Below are positions 41,838 through 62,121 of a stretch of 64,000 bases of DNA, piece after piece. Source of the DNA: Candidatus Acidiferrales bacterium. GTDB taxonomy: Bacteria > Bacteroidota > Ignavibacteria > Kryptoniales > JAKASW01. The notes under the pieces are model-generated. The model ran no database searches. It was not told where the DNA came from and saw only the letters and a program-made list of their open reading frames with translations. Positions within the stretch are counted from its first letter, which is position 1. Each line of letters starts with the position of its first letter. The translations under genes and the position numbers were made by a program. The stretch is from the NCBI GenBank assembly GCA_035515795.1, contig DATJAY010000035.1, positions 124,001 through 188,000 of the forward strand, written 5' to 3'.

Positions 41838-42542
41838 TCACCAGTCTTTGTCCGTCTTGACCGGCTGTCCTTTCATTTTCCTTAGCTGTTTCTGGAGATT
41901 TTTCTCGTCATTGTTTAATGCATTGAAAATCGACTCTGCCTGATCTTTCGAGATCTTTGGCGGTGGCTGCTGCGCCTGCTGATTTTGTTGTTGATTTTTC
42001 CTGTCGTTCTTGTTCTGTTGATCCTGATTGTTCTTGTTCTGTTCTTTGTTCTGATCGTTTTTATTCTGATCCTGGTTATTCTTGTTGTTTTTGTTCTGTT
42101 GGTTTTGATTTTTCAGTAAATCGAGTGCATAGGAAAGATTGTATTTAGTAGGTTCATCGTTCGGATTCAGCTTTAGTGATTCAATGTAGGCACCGACGCT
42201 CTCCTTGATCTTTTGATCTTTCAGGAGCGCATTGCCCATATTGTGGTAGACTCTTGCCTTTAAATCGTTCGTGCCCGCTTTTGACAGCGCAGCGCCGTAT
42301 GATTTCATCGCCTCGTCGTATTTTCCTTCCTTGTAGTATGAATCACCGAGGTCGAAGTTCGCCTGAAAATTCTCCGGAGATTTTTCCAAACCCTTTTTAA
42401 ACTCAACTTCGGAATCGATGTATTTGCCGCCATGATACAGATCGACTCCCTTGTTCACTGAAGACCGCGTGCTCTGGGCAAACAAGTCTCCGTAAATAAG
42501 CATGATTGCCAGAACCAGAAAATATTTCATCGATTCATTCAC
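41838..42542 (-). CDS. batC: BatC-like TPR protein with Asn/Gln-rich segment
   Basis: A 234-residue exported or membrane-anchored protein with a signal segment at about 6-22. TPR repeats (about 28-142) contain FDLGDSYYKEGKYDEAMKSY and NMGNALLKDQKIKES. Residues 145-192 are almost entirely Asn, Gln, Lys and Asp (KNNQDQNKND-like units), and the C-terminus is charged. BatC family TPR proteins are scaffold candidates in the aerotolerance machinery. The start is GTG at 42542 with GGAG ten bases upstream; an ATG at 42530 is possible. The gene is seven bases after batB. Confidence 0.85.
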   Translation of the reverse strand: MNESMKYFLVLAIMLIYGDLFAQSTRSSVNKGVDLYHGGKYIDSEVEFKKGLEKSPENFQANFDLGDSYYKEGKYDEAMKSYGAALSKAGTNDLKARVYHNMGNALLKDQKIKESVGAYIESLKLNPNDEPTKYNLSYALDLLKNQNQQNKNNKNNQDQNKNDQNKEQNKNNQDQQNKNDRKNQQQNQQAQQPPPKISKDQAESIFNALNNDEKNLQKQLRKMKGQPVKTDKDW

Positions 42543-43674: not shown

Positions 43675-44670
43675 TCATGGAATTGTTTTCAGAACCGTAT
43701 TCGACAGACCGAGTTCAAGCAAAAGTAAAATCAGTCCGGCATTCAGCCAGCCCGAAAAAAGTTCGGCGGCATTTCGGTAAGACGTGACTTCTATTCTCGA
43801 CTTTTCAAGCTGGTCGATCTTTTCATAAATTTCCTCCAGTGCTCTGTTGTTCGATGCGACGAAAGCCTGCCCGCCGGTAATGTCCGCAATATTTTTCAAA
43901 AGATTCTCGTCAATCGGGAACGCGATCATTTGGTAGCGAACTCCATAGGGGGTCTGGATCGGATAGGGAGCCTCGGCACCGGTCCCGATGCAGACGGTGT
44001 AAACACGAATTCCATAAGTCTTCGCAATTTCGGCCGCGGTCAGCGGGTCTATTTCACCCGCATTGTTTGCGCCGTCCGTCAAGAGTATGATCACTTTGCT
44101 TTTTGCTTTACCGTCTTTCAACCTCCCCACAGCATCGGCCAATCCATTCCCGATTGCCGTGCCGTCCTGGATCATTCCCGGTTCAATTTTCTGAAGGAGA
44201 TTTTCGAGTACCCGATGGTCGATCGTTATAGGACACTGGGTAAACGCGTCGCGAGAAAAGACGACCAAGCCGATCCTGTCGTTAGGCCGACCGTCGATAA
44301 ATTTTTCAGCAACGGCTTTAGCGGCTTCGACACGGTTGGGTTTGAAATCCTCCGAGATCATGCTTCCCGAGATGTCAAGCGCAATGACGATATCGATTCC
44401 CTCGGTCATTACGTTCCGGCCTGATGAAAAACTTTGCGGCCTTGCAAGCGCAATAATCAAGAGCGCTACCGCCACCGACCTCAGGACTATCGGTGCGTGA
44501 CGAAATTTTTCCTTCCACGAAGACGGAACTCGATTAAACACCCTCAATGAGGAATAAGTCACCGAGGGCTGTTTCGCGCTGCCGACTTTCCAATACCAAA
44601 GTATCATCGCGGGAATGATGGCGAGGAGAAGAAGAAGCCACGGATACGCAAACGTCACATCACCCAGCAT
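43675..44670 (-). CDS. batA: BatA von Willebrand factor A protein
   Basis: A 331-residue membrane protein: N-terminal TM helix at 9-26, a second at about 60-77, then a VWA domain (about 90-300). The intact MIDAS is DISGSM, with Thr and Asp motifs (LLTDGANNAGEID). A C-terminal TM helix follows near 308-325. It overlaps the upstream DUF4381-like gene by 11 bases. Family evidence links BatA to aerotolerance and stress resistance in Bacteroidota and spirochaetes. Confidence 0.93.
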   Translation of the reverse strand: MLGDVTFAYPWLLLLLAIIPAMILWYWKVGSAKQPSVTYSSLRVFNRVPSSWKEKFRHAPIVLRSVAVALLIIALARPQSFSSGRNVMTEGIDIVIALDISGSMISEDFKPNRVEAAKAVAEKFIDGRPNDRIGLVVFSRDAFTQCPITIDHRVLENLLQKIEPGMIQDGTAIGNGLADAVGRLKDGKAKSKVIILLTDGANNAGEIDPLTAAEIAKTYGIRVYTVCIGTGAEAPYPIQTPYGVRYQMIAFPIDENLLKNIADITGGQAFVASNNRALEEIYEKIDQLEKSRIEVTSYRNAAELFSGWLNAGLILLLLELGLSNTVLKTIP

Positions 44671-45727
44671 CGGTCAAACGGATCCCTTCGGTTTCTTGCT
44701 TTGGGTCGACCGGACTATCTTGTCCGGCCTGCGCCACCGGAATGGTCTTGTTCACAATTTCATTTGCCTGCTTCATCATTTCTTCGTTTATAGAATTGAG
44801 CGGGGTGAACTTCGCAAATTTTACCAGATCCGCGTTGGAAAGGAAATCATAGGTCGTACTGAGTATGGGTCCCGTCTCCCGATTCCGGCCAAGTACTTCA
44901 ATTGTCTCGGAAGTCGGAAGCTCCATCGCAGGCATGTTGAATCTCTCCTCAAAATATCTCCTTATGATCTCCGTGATTTCGGAATGATATTCCATGATCT
45001 TGCCCTTCTGCCAGAGCTGCCGTTTTTCTAACTCACGCAATGCATTCAGAGCAACGACATGGGACGGAAGCCTTTCGATTTCCTTCTCAAGCGGTGATTT
45101 CGTCTTCCGCATTCGATGCACGAGATATGAATACAGAAAGATTCCGACAAAGAACAGGGCAGCGAGAACCCAGAACAAGACCAGTTTCCAATTGAGGAGA
45201 ATTTTTATCGGGGGGTTAACATCCTTTATCTCACCCTGAGGATTGACTTTCAGAGTCTGAATCGTGAAGCTGACGGGATTTGTGTAGGCAAAATGTGTCG
45301 TTGAATCACTGGAGGTTTGATACGGCACAGCAATCGATGGAATGAGCACTCCGGTTGAATCGTACCCGGAGAGAACGTATTTGAAAGCCACGTTTACTAT
45401 TCCATTTTCTTCCTCTTCGTCCGGTTTTTCTTTTTCTATCAGCGTGACACTTTTCAAACTGTCGGGGACAAATGACGGCGGATAGATTTTGAAATCTTTG
45501 CCGCAACTAACGACAATCGTGTAATTGATGTAATCGCCGACAAGGTATTGTGTCTTGTCGGTCGAAGCTTTCGCAGTTATCTCCTGAGAAAGGGACGTAC
45601 TTGCGCCGAATAGCGGCATGAAACAAGAAGCAAGAAGCAAGCGGAAAAGAACTTCCGATTTAACCTGGACCCGGGTGCCGTACATTTCGTTTCTGAATTT
45701 TGACCTCCGGCCTCTGCTTCCTACCAT
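44660..45727 (-). CDS. DUF4381-like membrane protein of the bat operon
   Basis: A 355-residue protein. A signal segment (about 29-48) precedes a periplasmic beta domain (about 48-180). One TM helix lies at about 190-210, and a cytoplasmic region (LEKEIERLPSHVVALNALRELEKR) resembles DUF4381. It usually sits between DUF58 and batA, as here; the function is unknown. The ATG at 45727 overlaps DUF58 by 7 bases. A second ATG at 45685 would drop an odd 14-residue leader encoded by a word-like AGGAGG/AGAAG tract, so the true start is uncertain. Confidence 0.78.
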   Translation of the reverse strand: MVGSRGRRSKFRNEMYGTRVQVKSEVLFRLLLASCFMPLFGASTSLSQEITAKASTDKTQYLVGDYINYTIVVSCGKDFKIYPPSFVPDSLKSVTLIEKEKPDEEEENGIVNVAFKYVLSGYDSTGVLIPSIAVPYQTSSDSTTHFAYTNPVSFTIQTLKVNPQGEIKDVNPPIKILLNWKLVLFWVLAALFFVGIFLYSYLVHRMRKTKSPLEKEIERLPSHVVALNALRELEKRQLWQKGKIMEYHSEITEIIRRYFEERFNMPAMELPTSETIEVLGRNRETGPILSTTYDFLSNADLVKFAKFTPLNSINEEMMKQANEIVNKTIPVAQAGQDSPVDPKQETEGIRLTDAG

Positions 45728-46611
45728 CTTCTCTCTCTCATTTTAAAAAATTGGACGAGAGGCTTTATGTAATTTTGTCCCGTTTCGATTTCGATGCTGT
45801 CGAGACGGCTCGATAGAAATAATGATTGCAGATTTTCTCTGTCCCTTTCTCTCATTTTCCTGAATAAAAATCTGGTTCGCCTGTCTCCGGTATCGACCCA
45901 TCTTTCATTACCGGTCTCCGCGTCGGTGAATTTCACCAGTCCCATATCCGGAATCTCGTCTTCTCTCCTGTCGATCAAGACCATTCCGATGAGGTCGTGC
46001 TTCTTTCCTACGATCCTCAAAATCTTTTCGTAATCGGAATCCATGAAATCCGAAAGGAGAAACACGATACTTCGTCTCTTTATCGCGTTGTTCATGTACT
46101 CCAACGCAGCTTTGAGATTCGTCGATTTTCCTTCCGGTTCGAATGACAAGACTTCCCGGATAATCCTGAGGACGTGCTTATCGCCCTTCCTCGGAGGAAC
46201 GAACTTTTCGATCTTGTCGGTGAATAAAATCAGTCCAACCTTGTCGTTATTCTTCAGTGCGGAGAATGCCAGGATCGCGCTGATCTCTGCCGCTATTTGC
46301 TGTTTCGTTTTGTCCACCGAGCCGAAGATCAGCGACCCGCTCAAGTCCACCATAAGAATAACAGTGAGCTCGCGCTCCTCTTCGAATATTTTTACAAATG
46401 GGCGGCCAAATCTTGCAGTGACATTCCAGTCAATGTTCCTGATATCGTCGCCGAACTGGTATTCCCTTACCTCCGAAAATTCCATTCCTCTCCCCTTGAA
46501 AACCGAATGGTATTCACCGGAGAAAACTTGATTGACCAGGCCCTTGGTTCGGATTTCTATTTGCCTGACTTGCTTTAAAAGCTCTTTGGTAAGCACTGAA
46601 GTTAATTCCAA
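45721..46611 (-). CDS. DUF58 (VWA-like) protein
   Basis: A 296-residue cytoplasmic protein of the DUF58 family. It has the MRGREFSE-type motif (FKGRGMEFSEVREYQFGDD), DIRNIDWNVTARFGRP and a VWA-like fold with MVDLSGSL. It is partnered with MoxR AAA+ ATPases throughout bacteria. The start is uncertain: the frame begins TTG at 46611 with no SD, directly after a 17-base-pair hairpin. A GTG at 46596 with GGA ten bases before it is an alternative. The stop overlaps the next start. Confidence 0.9.
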   Translation of the reverse strand: MELTSVLTKELLKQVRQIEIRTKGLVNQVFSGEYHSVFKGRGMEFSEVREYQFGDDIRNIDWNVTARFGRPFVKIFEEERELTVILMVDLSGSLIFGSVDKTKQQIAAEISAILAFSALKNNDKVGLILFTDKIEKFVPPRKGDKHVLRIIREVLSFEPEGKSTNLKAALEYMNNAIKRRSIVFLLSDFMDSDYEKILRIVGKKHDLIGMVLIDRREDEIPDMGLVKFTDAETGNERWVDTGDRRTRFLFRKMRERDRENLQSLFLSSRLDSIEIETGQNYIKPLVQFFKMRERRW

Positions 46612-46649
46612 ATTCTAAATTTTGAATTCTCAAATTCAAAATTTAGAAT
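46612..46649. repeat. 17-base-pair perfect AT-rich hairpin between moxR and DUF58
   Basis: Arms 46612-46628 and 46633-46649 are perfect reverse complements (ATTCTAAATTTTGAATT and its complement) around a 4-base loop. It fills almost the entire 43-base junction between the moxR stop and the DUF58 start. It is far more AT-rich than its surroundings and has no long T tract. It may be an mRNA processing or attenuation hairpin, or an intergenic repeat. Confidence 0.85.
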
Positions 46650-46654
46650 CATCT

Positions 46655-47638
46655 TTACGGAACTTCCACTTTGTTCAAAATTTCTCTGATTACATCTTCA
46701 GCGGTCAACTCTTCCGCTTCGGCTTCGTAACTCACGGCGATGCGGTGGCGAAGAACATCGAAGCAAATCGCGCGCACGTCTTCAGGGATAACGTACCCTC
46801 TTCTTCTTATGAATGCCATCGCTTTCGCACCCAATGCCAAATTGATCGACGCTCTCGGCGATGCGCCGTAACTGACGAGGTCGGCCAGCTTGTCCAGGTG
46901 AAAATCTTTGGGGAAGCGCGTTGCCTGGACTATATCAAGAATGTACTTTTCCACCTTTTCGTCGATATAGACTTCGCGGACAAGTTCTCTCGCCTTGAGA
47001 ATATCCTTCGGTGTGACAACCTGCTGCACCGCGCCGTTGACCATATTGACATTCTGCCGCATGATCTTCAGTTCTTCGTCTCGGGTGGGATAAGTTATTT
47101 TTACTTTCAACATGAATCTATCGACCTGAGCCTCCGGCAGCGGATATGTTCCTTCCTGCTCGATAGGATTCTGGGTCGCCAACACGAGAAAGGGTTCATC
47201 GAGCTTAAACGTTTGCTCCCCGATGGTAACCTGCCTCTCCTGCATCGCCTCCAGAAGTGCGCTTTGCACTTTTGCGGGGGCCCGATTTATTTCATCAGCG
47301 AGAATGAAGTTGGAGAAAATCGGTCCCTTGCGAATCAGAAAATTCCCGTCCTTCTGATTATAAATCTGAGTGCCGATGAGATCTGCGGGGAGTAAATCCG
47401 GTGTGAATTGTATTCGCTGAAACTTCGCCTTCGTCGCCGCTGAAAGAGTCTTTATCGCCAGGGTCTTAGCCAGCCCGGGAACGCCTTCCAACAAAACGTG
47501 ACCGTTGCTCAAAAGGCCGATGACCAATCTTTCCGCCATCGCTTTTTGTCCGACTATGATTTTGCCGATTTCGTTCATCAACAAATCTACGAAAGCGCTT
47601 TCTAGTTTGATTTTCTCGTTAAGAGCAGTAATGTCCAA
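46655..47638 (-). CDS. moxR: MoxR-family AAA+ ATPase
   Basis: A 327-residue AAA+ ATPase. Walker A GVPGLAKT lies near residues 53-60, Walker B FILADEINRAP near 110-120, sensor 1 ATQNP (about 152-156), and the C-terminal lid domain has GASPRASI. MoxR ATPases act as chaperones activating VWA partners, and DUF58, BatA and BatB follow. The start is TTG at 47638, seven bases after GAGG. It opens the eight-gene bat operon. Confidence 0.93.
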   Translation of the reverse strand: MDITALNEKIKLESAFVDLLMNEIGKIIVGQKAMAERLVIGLLSNGHVLLEGVPGLAKTLAIKTLSAATKAKFQRIQFTPDLLPADLIGTQIYNQKDGNFLIRKGPIFSNFILADEINRAPAKVQSALLEAMQERQVTIGEQTFKLDEPFLVLATQNPIEQEGTYPLPEAQVDRFMLKVKITYPTRDEELKIMRQNVNMVNGAVQQVVTPKDILKARELVREVYIDEKVEKYILDIVQATRFPKDFHLDKLADLVSYGASPRASINLALGAKAMAFIRRRGYVIPEDVRAICFDVLRHRIAVSYEAEAEELTAEDVIREILNKVEVP

Positions 47639-47974
47639 TTTAAAGCCTCATTAGTGGTTATTGATTCAGATTCAAAAGCGGGGTCGAAAGTTTAATTCAA
47701 TGTATTGCTCGGTCAATCGAAAACGTTCGAATCTACTCTCTTTGTGTCATCTCATACTACCAACAAGATATAAAACCTGAATGAATTTGTCATGGACAAT
47801 TTCCATCCCGTGATCCTGCTGTGATTTTACTAACGTTGTCCAGTCCACGTTTATGGAACAAATATGATTTTCCCCCGGTGAAACCGCAATTAAATAAAAA
47901 TGAAAAAAAATTCATTAGACCCGTGTGCAATTCCCACGGAGCGGTTAATGGATTCAATGAGACGAGGCGGGAAC

Positions 47975-48003
47975 TTGACTCTTGGCCGCTGATGTTATAT
48001 CTT
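47975..48003 (+). promoter_or_regulatory. Promoter of the TetR/Emr efflux operon
   Basis: A -35 TTGACT (47975-47980) and -10 TATCTT (47998-48003) with a 17-base spacer. The -10 fits TAnnTT, and an inverted repeat begins at its last base. Confidence 0.5.
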
Positions 48004-48029
48004 TCGACTAGATTACTTAAACAGTCGAA
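48003..48029. promoter_or_regulatory. Inverted repeat, candidate operator of the second TetR
   Basis: Seven-base arms TTCGACT (48003-48009) and AGTCGAA (48023-48029) with a 13-base spacer. They lie between the -10 and the SD (AAGGA) of the TetR gene. The geometry matches the first efflux cassette. Confidence 0.5.
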
Positions 48030-48050
48030 CAGTTTTAAGGACGAATAAAA

Positions 48051-48662
48051 ATGCCAGAACAGCTATCGAGCGAAAAACAAGCGGTTATACTCGACGCAGC
48101 CAGAAAAAGGTTCGCATATTACGGATTTTCAAAGGTTACGATGGATGAGATCGCCGCCGATGTCGGCATGGGAAAAGCATCGCTTTACTACTACTTCCCC
48201 ACAAAAGAGAAACTTTTCGAAGAAGTTGTCAAACAGGAGAAGAACCAGTTTTTCAACGACATCAATCTGATGATCGAGAAGAAAGTCTCCTCGAGCGATA
48301 TGCTTCGCCGCTATGCCGCAAGGCGAATTGAGCATTTCCGGAACCTGGCTAACCTGCGCGCCCTGATCACGCAGCAGAATGGAGAAATGAGGGCGTGCTC
48401 GATTGAACTCTTCAAGGAGTTTCAAATGCAGGAGGTCAAGGTTCTACAGGAAATTCTCCAGCTCGGAAAGAAGAACGGTGAATTGGGAACCCCGAACCCT
48501 CAGCAATCTGCCGAAGCGATCATGCAAATGCTCTACGGGCCGCGAAGCTGGTACCTTCATAAGCTTCAACGCGACCCAGACGACGAGACTTATCGTCTCA
48601 TCGAGCAGGCGACGAAAGAAATAGTCGAAATCATTCTTAACGGAATCAGAAAAAGAAAATAA
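48051..48662 (+). CDS. TetR-family regulator of the Emr efflux cassette
   Basis: A 203-residue regulator: TetR HTH (AARKRFAYYGFSKVTMDEIA ... GMGKASLYYYFPTKEKLFEE) at about 8-60, then a helical ligand domain ending in a basic tail. It lies 13 bases before the EmrA gene. It likely represses its own operon by way of the inverted repeat upstream. Confidence 0.9.
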   Translation: MPEQLSSEKQAVILDAARKRFAYYGFSKVTMDEIAADVGMGKASLYYYFPTKEKLFEEVVKQEKNQFFNDINLMIEKKVSSSDMLRRYAARRIEHFRNLANLRALITQQNGEMRACSIELFKEFQMQEVKVLQEILQLGKKNGELGTPNPQQSAEAIMQMLYGPRSWYLHKLQRDPDDETYRLIEQATKEIVEIILNGIRKRK

Positions 48663-48675
48663 AAGGTCTACATAT

Positions 48676-49710
48676 ATGGAAGCAGAAGAAAAAAATTACA
48701 AAGGCGTCAACCAACCTCGCCAAGGGGGAATCCCCTCGGGACAACCTCCTCAAAATTACAGAGCACCGGAGAATGGCGGAGACGAAGACATCGAGGATGT
48801 TCCTCTGTTCAAAAGAAAGAAAGTCATAATTCCGATCCTCGTGGTCCTGACGATAGTTGCTGTCGCCGGGTTGTATTTGTACATGAATATGCAGGACTAT
48901 GTTTCTACCGACGATGCATATGTCGATGCAAACAATGTCGCGATCAGCTCGAAGATGCTCGGCAGGATTACATATCTTGGAACGGACGAGGGAGATACAG
49001 TACAAGCAGGCCAGGTTCTCGTGAGGCTTGACGAGAGCGATCTGCGCGCCCAGGAGGTATCCGCGAAAGCCGGACTTGAGCTTGCTCAACAGAGCCTGCC
49101 GCTTGATCAAGTCAGCATCAATCGTGCGCAGGACGATTTCGATCGCGCCGAAGTTCAATATAAGAGCGGGATCGTGACGAAGGAGCAATACGATCACGCG
49201 CAGAAAGCCCTGGAAGCGACCCGTGCCCAGTACAACATAGATCTCACTAAGATCACGACGGCAAAAGCACAGATTGGAGTTATACAATCGCAGCTCGCAA
49301 ATACCGTGATAGCCGCTCCTATGGATGGCGTGGTCGCAAAGAGATGGGTTCTCAGCGGAGACGTCATCCAGCCGGGCCAACCGATATTTACGATGTATGA
49401 TCTGAAAAACATTTGGGTGACGGCAAATCTTGAGGAAACAAAACTGGGTCACATCCATTTGAATGATCCCGTTGAAATCGATGTCGATACTTATCCCGGC
49501 GTCAAATTTTATGGCAAAGTTTTCGAAATTGGGACTTATACGGCATCTGAGTTTTCTCTTATTCCACCGAACAACGCATCCGGAAATTTCACGAAAGTCA
49601 CCCAGCGCGTCCCAATAAAAATTTCAATTGAAGATGCTCCGGCGCAAGACGGCTCCAAACCGATATTAAGACCTGGAATGTCGGTAGAGGTTTCGGTGAA
49701 AATAAAATAG
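48676..49710 (+). CDS. EmrA-type membrane fusion protein
   Basis: A 344-residue HlyD-family adaptor. The cytoplasmic N-terminus (about 1-49) is Pro/Gly/Gln-rich. A single TM (about 50-71) anchors it, followed by DYVSTDDAYVDANNVAISSK, the hallmark of EmrA. Lipoyl halves flank a coiled-coil hairpin (about 115-190), and a beta-barrel domain follows. It links an EmrB-type pump to TolC. The start follows AAAAGG at 15 bases or a weak AAAGG. Two pump genes follow. Confidence 0.92.
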   Translation: MEAEEKNYKGVNQPRQGGIPSGQPPQNYRAPENGGDEDIEDVPLFKRKKVIIPILVVLTIVAVAGLYLYMNMQDYVSTDDAYVDANNVAISSKMLGRITYLGTDEGDTVQAGQVLVRLDESDLRAQEVSAKAGLELAQQSLPLDQVSINRAQDDFDRAEVQYKSGIVTKEQYDHAQKALEATRAQYNIDLTKITTAKAQIGVIQSQLANTVIAAPMDGVVAKRWVLSGDVIQPGQPIFTMYDLKNIWVTANLEETKLGHIHLNDPVEIDVDTYPGVKFYGKVFEIGTYTASEFSLIPPNNASGNFTKVTQRVPIKISIEDAPAQDGSKPILRPGMSVEVSVKIK

Positions 49711-62085: not shown

Positions 62086-62121
62086 AAAGTCCCGTTCCGA
62101 TTGGATTCGAAACGGGACTTT
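62086..62121. terminator. Bidirectional terminator between convergent genes
   Basis: An 11-base-pair perfect stem AAAGTCCCGTT (62086-62096) and AACGGGACTTT (62111-62121) with a 14-base loop. It is followed by TTGTTT on the plus strand and a T-rich stretch on the minus strand. It separates the aldo/keto reductase from the leftward gene at 62147. Confidence 0.85.

Follow-up and report, generated by a model that had tools for sequence, protein, structure and literature searches.

S23 proteins (PF05635) are four-helix proteins that go by the name of "23S rRNA intervening sequence protein", and short, dispersed, ORF-less palindromes between genes are familiar as MITEs and REP/REPIN sequences; REP/BIME sequences are mobilised by TnpA_REP. 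The function of the S23 protein, or IVP, is given as unknown in the accessible parts of the literature. Heptanucleotide repeats are known there from Coxiella, Beggiatoaceae, Xanthomonas and Nostoc, and no origin has been agreed for them. The nearest described system is the intervening sequence (IVS) in the 23S rRNA of Coxiella burnetii, 428 nt long with an S23p ORF and a 28-bp terminal stem, in which GACAGAT heptamers lie just upstream of the ORF and RNase III cuts at the first repeat; it has been termed selfish, and a transposition remnant is among the hypotheses given for it (PMC4990558). TAACTGA heptamers are dispersed between genes in Beggiatoaceae, cyanobacteria and Bacteroidetes, many of them directly before start codons (PMC4679880), and GGGAATC/GGGGATT heptamers of Xanthomonas and Nostoc include 70 and 75 convergent (inverted) pairs in two Xanthomonas genomes (PMC4692102). 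The terms four helix, intervening sequence and S23 are absent from the accessible text of both papers, as is 23S rRNA from that of PMC4679880. Here we describe a perfect hairpin between a moxR gene and a DUF58 gene, which is probably an ORF-less relic of a dispersed element consisting of inverted AATTNNN arrays, the gene-bearing relatives of which carry S23.

The window, by which we mean the whole 64,000-nt stretch of DNA that was analysed, was scanned for inverted repeats with arms of at least 12 nt and a spacing of up to 30 nt. Among the 11 inverted repeats listed, the moxR–DUF58 hairpin is the sole fully complementary pair, with 17 of 17 bp paired. Its parts and its neighbours are as follows.

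46655–47638, minus strand: upstream gene of the junction, which we take from its sequence to be moxR (AAA ATPase); an ORF ending in KVEVP-stop as in relatives
46633–46649, minus strand: 5' arm of the hairpin as read on the mRNA strand, from the inverted repeat and the fold
46629–46632, minus strand: loop of 4 nt, from the inverted repeat and the fold
46612–46628, minus strand: 3' arm of the hairpin, the inverted heptads, from the inverted repeat and the fold
46604–46649, unstranded: whole degenerate heptad array with the unit AATTNNN, period 7 in Tandem Repeats Finder, four AATT cores in phase without mismatch
45721–46596, minus strand: downstream gene for a DUF58 protein, start conserved in relatives

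The original prediction of a perfect 17-bp hairpin is confirmed. Its RNA fold is -15.6 kcal/mol, compared with a mean of -3.1 for 200 shuffles (z = -7.4), none of which is as stable. Equally, the stem is AT-rich and lacks an adjoining T tract, as had been noticed. The reading as an intrinsic terminator is rejected because this T tract is missing: no T run follows the stem, which is AT-rich and not G+C-rich. An Rfam scan of 44000–49000, covering both known RNA families and a location in rRNA, gave no match at the gathering score. The hairpin had also been said to abut the DUF58 start, which does not agree with the comparison of relatives. The moxR stop codon occupies 46657–46655 and the stem starts 5 nt further on. 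The conserved DUF58 beginning, (M/V/L)(L/Q)TK(E/D)LLKQ in 11 orthologues of the genus, falls here on the GTG at 46596–46594, which in view of this alignment is most likely the start codon. Hence, the stem and the likely start codon are not adjacent but stand 15 nt apart. The TTG at 46611 is unsupported as the start of the DUF58 ORF, given that the conserved part in the orthologues begins at the GTG. By eye, an ATG frame of 16 codons on the minus strand (46652–46602) crosses the hairpin and stops just short of the DUF58 start, probably by chance. Elsewhere, the window has a second strong hairpin at 62086–62121 (AAAGTCCCGTTCCGA), with 15-nt arms that are 93% complementary and 6 nt apart, and an imperfect tandem repeat of about 45 nt at 42019–42110.

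The hairpin is part of a degenerate array, for which Tandem Repeats Finder reports period 7 across 46604–46643: the four AATT cores recur every 7 nt, separated by triplets that vary, and the latter half repeats the former in inverted orientation. That it might be an intergenic repeat had been one of the options raised, with a genome search for further copies as the check, and this option proved right. In its own genome (G000) the pattern AATTNNN x4 with up to two mismatches has 53 match positions, overlapping positions within one array being counted separately, compared with 2 for the reversed pattern. A 644-kb sample of this genome, made up of the window and 29 stretches picked by position and with about 90% of its DNA in called ORFs, matches AATT at period 7 in 10 positions between genes and 2 within coding sequence; each of the 15 other palindromic cores has 0–1 at this period, AATT at 7 other periods has 0–3, and the largest other value in the table of cores and periods, TCGA at period 12 with 11 positions, is all coding. 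Exact AATTNNN x4 is present in 12 of the 13 genus genomes (0 to 48 positions) and in 24 of the 41 genomes searched. The reversed pattern has no match in any of the 13, and outside the genus three genomes have 27, 4 and 2 matches to it. For stretches of G010 and G012 that were selected for arrays, 25 of 26 AATT arrays lie outside any called ORF, and in 18 of 26 an inverted half is present that outscores 60 shuffles. Two places in G012 (G012:C124:103360-103745 and G012:C24:23086-23417) hold heptad arrays nested in larger tandem repeats (about 118 and 150 nt).

Many S23 genes have inverted arrays of 7- or 8-nt units on their two sides. The genus yields 91 PF05635 matches, spread over 12 of its 13 genomes, and 90 of the 118 phylum genomes sampled have a match; the genome of the window and 14 control genomes have none. 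Of the genus matches, 71 were used (the other 20 comprise 6 in frames of more than 400 aa and 14 that are mostly fragments or low-scoring), and 70 of these loci have enough flank. Each locus was scored by aligning its 300 nt of upstream sequence locally with the reverse-complemented downstream flank. The mean over the 70 genus loci is 29.4, compared with 18.8 after permutation of partners (sd 0.52, maximum 21.2 of 5000), and 46 of them score above 23, which is the 95th percentile for 203 genes other than S23 in the window's genome. For the best-scoring 30 phylum loci the mean is 28.9, compared with 19.3 when permuted (sd 0.74). A score of at least 24 is reached by 46 of 70 genus and 19 of 30 phylum S23 loci versus 18 of 135 neighbouring genes at the same loci, with 24 genus and 11 phylum loci remaining below 24. 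Among the genus and phylum arms at or above 24, the best period is 7 for 94, 8 for 31 and another for 5, and shuffled arms spread across 5–11.

Plasmid loci were scored as well. A first set, 18 of 25 records whose S23 resembles the AATT clade, drawn from Cyanobacteriota, Spirochaetota, Bacillota, Chloroflexota and Bacteroidota, reaches 24 at 18 of 18 loci (mean 52.7, compared with 23.4 after permutation, sd 2.7), and period 7 fits best among 5–11 in each of the 36 arms. A second set from another query (6 of 28 records) reaches 24 at 6 of 6 loci, with scores of 29–62, four at period 7 and two at period 8, which brings inverted arrays to 24 of 24 S23 loci over both sets.

With regard to placement, S23 is in sense to both neighbours at 52 of 70 genus and 22 of 30 phylum loci. 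The flanking gene pairs are co-directional at 76 of 89 S23 loci versus 420 of 539 gene pairs in the window's genome (p 0.07), and the idea of a stem bridging stop and start was dropped; ordinary operon gaps are short, so we claim no special targeting. Twenty of the 30 phylum loci were scanned for a location of S23 within rRNA and gave no Rfam match. Three loci (G003_C101, G010_C81_10491 and G012_C124_105212) have heptads of both orientations on one side of the gene, and S23 may therefore sit there between two hairpin modules, not two single arms. At the junction upstream of an ABC-transporter ATPase (HlyD-ABC), 8 of 12 genomes have different S23 elements or ORF-less arrays (L311–L318, in G005, G006, G011, G004, G003, G012, G009 and G002). 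The junction was set aside as an empty site: G007, G008 and G010 have no array and a longer N-terminus there and the G000 match is in another context, so there is no clean boundary.

Several plasmid S23 genes lie in or next to defence operons (L327, L329, L331, L338, L340, L342, L343, L344 and L347), with the orders cas6/S23/cas4, cas10/S23/cmr3, drmD/S23/MmeI, hsdS/S23/hsdR and DUF1156/S23/Swt1; in two cyanobacterial plasmids S23 is found antisense between cas2 and cas1, and elsewhere beside cas1. Surveys list IVP near CRISPR (PMC3936711; figure legend of PMC10910872), in the parts of these articles that are accessible, and the placement of S23 in defence operons may explain that listing.

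The unit of an array tends to go with the type of S23 that it flanks. In an S23 protein tree, which has few columns and many open forks and which together with the pair tests below covers 66 of the 70 loci, clades mostly share unit and period; the units were read by eye and the clade names were coined for this analysis.

KEN-type S23 (the AATT clade of the genus): AATTNNN, 4 of 4 genes with AATT arms
Neighbours of KEN-type S23: TCAATGA
KDF-type S23: TCAGCNN
THKDL-type S23: an octad
KLEVW-type S23: GGAATNNT, an octad
PKKLDD-type S23: a 10-mer

Some members of the tree have no clear arms, for example G012_C124_99836 and G001_C1. S23 proteins that are at least 50% identical share arm sequence at unrelated sites: a cross-arm score of at least 24 is found for 37 of 47 such pairs, at sites with unrelated outer flanks, and 10 of the 47 do not share. 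The corresponding figures are 11 of 79 pairs at 40–50% identity, 28 of 280 at 30–40% and 98 of 1616 below 30%. The 47 close pairs come from 47 loci, which fall into 8 protein clusters, and in 8 of 8 clusters at least half of the pairs share arms; their mean cross-arm score is 31.5, compared with 19.8 when loci are relabelled (sd 0.54, maximum 22.6 of 5000). The rank correlation across all pairs is weak, at only 0.069 (1000 permutations: sd 0.023, maximum 0.070), because sharing sets in abruptly at about 50% identity. Between phyla the match of unit and S23 is mixed. S23s of Pseudanabaena and Calothrix, 58 and 56% identical to a KDF-type S23, have TTAGCNN arms, three from Nostoc/Dolichospermum at 50, 48 and 45% identity to the AATT type have AATTCGN, but AAAAGTA is the unit of the two plasmid S23s closest to the AATT clade, at 52 and 51% identity.

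At the moxR–DUF58 junction itself, 11 genus genomes have an orthologue of this DUF58, with only distant matches in G004 and G005. By eye, AATTNNN arrays are clear in six (G000, G001, G008, G010, G011 and G012, the G008 junction being read through L120), with halves about 60 nt apart in G011; G003 and G009 have remnants, and G002, G006 and G007 have TCAGC-like heptads. The DUF58 tree, with 10 labelled rows that do not include G008, does not resolve the unit switches at the junction. Over 41 contigs (L117–L157) the two genes are separated by -1 to 460 nt, and several junctions, for example L130, L131, L132, L148 and L150, show by eye inverted arrays built of other units. The longest gap, 460 nt in L147, holds an octad array, an ORF matching PF05635 (1.1e-31) and an inverted array. 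Array-free junctions with gaps of -1 to 9 nt exist and are too divergent for a clean empty site to be aligned or a target-site duplication to be read. The sequence is not conserved at this junction, and some relatives have other arrays at the same place.

Set beside the S23-bearing IVS, the hairpin has complementary ends forming a stem (17 of 17 bp) and heptameric repeats at that stem (period 7, AATTNNN). Its 38 nt contain no ORF and its genome has no S23 match, S23 lying beside AATTNNN in relatives; it is placed between moxR and DUF58 and not within an rRNA gene, with no Rfam match in 44000–49000. We therefore class it as an ORF-less relative of the S23-bearing element and not as an IVS. Going by the accessible description, the Coxiella IVS resembles the elements studied here in being small, with complementary ends forming a stem, an S23 ORF inside and heptameric repeats; it differs in lying in rRNA helix 45, whereas the present copies lie between protein genes, often with unit arrays on both sides and often without an ORF. 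The Coxiella repeats are direct repeats of one IVS, and the accessible text draws no link between units and S23 subfamilies (PMC4990558). The TAACTGA repeats are like the AATTNNN arrays as dispersed intergenic heptamers, but in the accessible account they are mostly direct repeats of one exact heptamer (PMC4679880); the GGGAATC/GGGGATT arrays are likewise intergenic heptamers, but are treated there as G-quadruplex repeats (PMC4692102). As a short, dispersed, ORF-less, intergenic palindrome the hairpin also recalls MITE and REP sequences, and the dispersed copies with inverted ends that mark a MITE are found, both in the dispersal through its own genome and genus and in the inverted halves of 18 of the 26 G010/G012 arrays. 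It is unlike them in having S23 as its associated gene and arms made up of a short, degenerate repeated unit.

The copy in the window can be tied to one particular relative. The 25-mer at 46604–46628 of the plus strand, allowing up to one mismatch, occurs in the 13 genomes only here and at G003:C101:2353-2377, where it is letter-identical over 25 nt and precedes, on the upstream side, an S23 gene of the KEN type. Exact AATT positions number 41, 48, 17 and 7 in the genomes that have such an S23 and 22, 14, 9, 6, 3, 1, 1, 1 and 0 in the nine others (one-sided rank test, p = 0.018, chosen post hoc). Since its own genome has arrays and no S23 match, the hairpin reads as an orphan, and the S23 link of the window copy runs only through relatives. 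Also against the element reading, the fold is unremarkable at some array-bearing junctions (G003 z +0.4, G011 -1.9, G002 -2.0). We suggest that the arrays and S23 move together as one unit and that S23 recognises its own unit. Short copies such as the window hairpin would arise through interior loss and would persist where S23 is absent. By analogy with Coxiella, the stem in mRNA may act like an rRNA intervening sequence and be a possible RNase III target, and the space after the moxR stop and before the DUF58 start would tolerate it. The simplest reading of the window copy is a tolerated relic.

The original prediction also offered local functions, namely blocking or permitting DUF58 translation or stabilising processed moxR mRNA. 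On a rival reading of this kind, a locally selected RNA element would tune how much MoxR is made relative to DUF58, whether through processing, a more stable moxR mRNA or hindered initiation of DUF58. The hairpin is indeed very stable for its composition, and relatives have different hairpins at the same place: among 32 moxR–DUF58 junctions 40 nt or longer, 14 are equalled in stability by no more than 1 of 100 shuffles, or 13 of 31 with G010 and L121 merged as one locus (the set includes L133 and L155 with a misread moxR end and does not include G001). However, 17 further junctions were below 40 nt, L147 was skipped for its length, and several junctions have no room for a hairpin. Neither sequence nor stability is kept within the genus, and similar arrays are found at many other junctions, so that we regard a selected local element as unlikely. 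A regulatory role could also be exerted in trans, with the arrays as binding sites for S23 or a host protein and the copies at junctions forming a regulon and not mobile debris. The arm sequence common to close S23s at unrelated sites is in line with this, as are the match of S23 to the solved protein 2rld (7e-24; weakly also to 2gsc, which is XCC0516, 0.04) and its orientation: between co-directional neighbours, 74 of 76 S23 genes read in sense, versus 109 of 127 small genes of the window's genome, which is the fairer baseline than 50% (p about 0.005). Against it, the window's genome keeps arrays without an S23 match, the junctions that carry arrays vary between species, and S23 is antisense between cas2 and cas1 in the two cyanobacterial plasmids; we consider a regulon somewhat doubtful as an explanation.

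A purely mutational origin, with slippage producing heptad arrays, quasi-palindrome correction perfecting them and no link to any gene, would be expected to give just such degenerate tandem units with near-perfect arms. It is disfavoured because close S23s share their arms at unrelated sites, which it leaves unexplained together with the excess of AATT at period 7 in G000, and we hold it to be very improbable. The relic of a dispersed S23-associated element remains the reading that we prefer for the hairpin. A wider proposal, which we offer tentatively as possible, is that of a code: each S23 subfamily would read its own 7- or 8-nt unit, the pair would spread to operon junctions as the mRNA counterpart of rRNA intervening sequences, and leftover ORF-less arrays would account for many unexplained bacterial heptanucleotide repeats, including this hairpin.

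Separate publications already cover heptamer repeats, S23 intervening sequences and ORF-less insertions. A link between PF05635 and intergenic inverted unit arrays was not found in the open-access literature searched, the nearest paper being that on the Coxiella IVS (PMC4990558). New relative to that literature are intergenic S23 genes with inverted unit arrays and units common to related S23s. If S23 subfamilies match their own flanking unit, the function of S23 and the origin of the heptamers become one testable question, namely whether S23 binds its own unit array as a means of element movement or processing. If true, this would also give a simple reason for the presence of S23 in CRISPR and other defence operons, which may be mere insertion at gene junctions.
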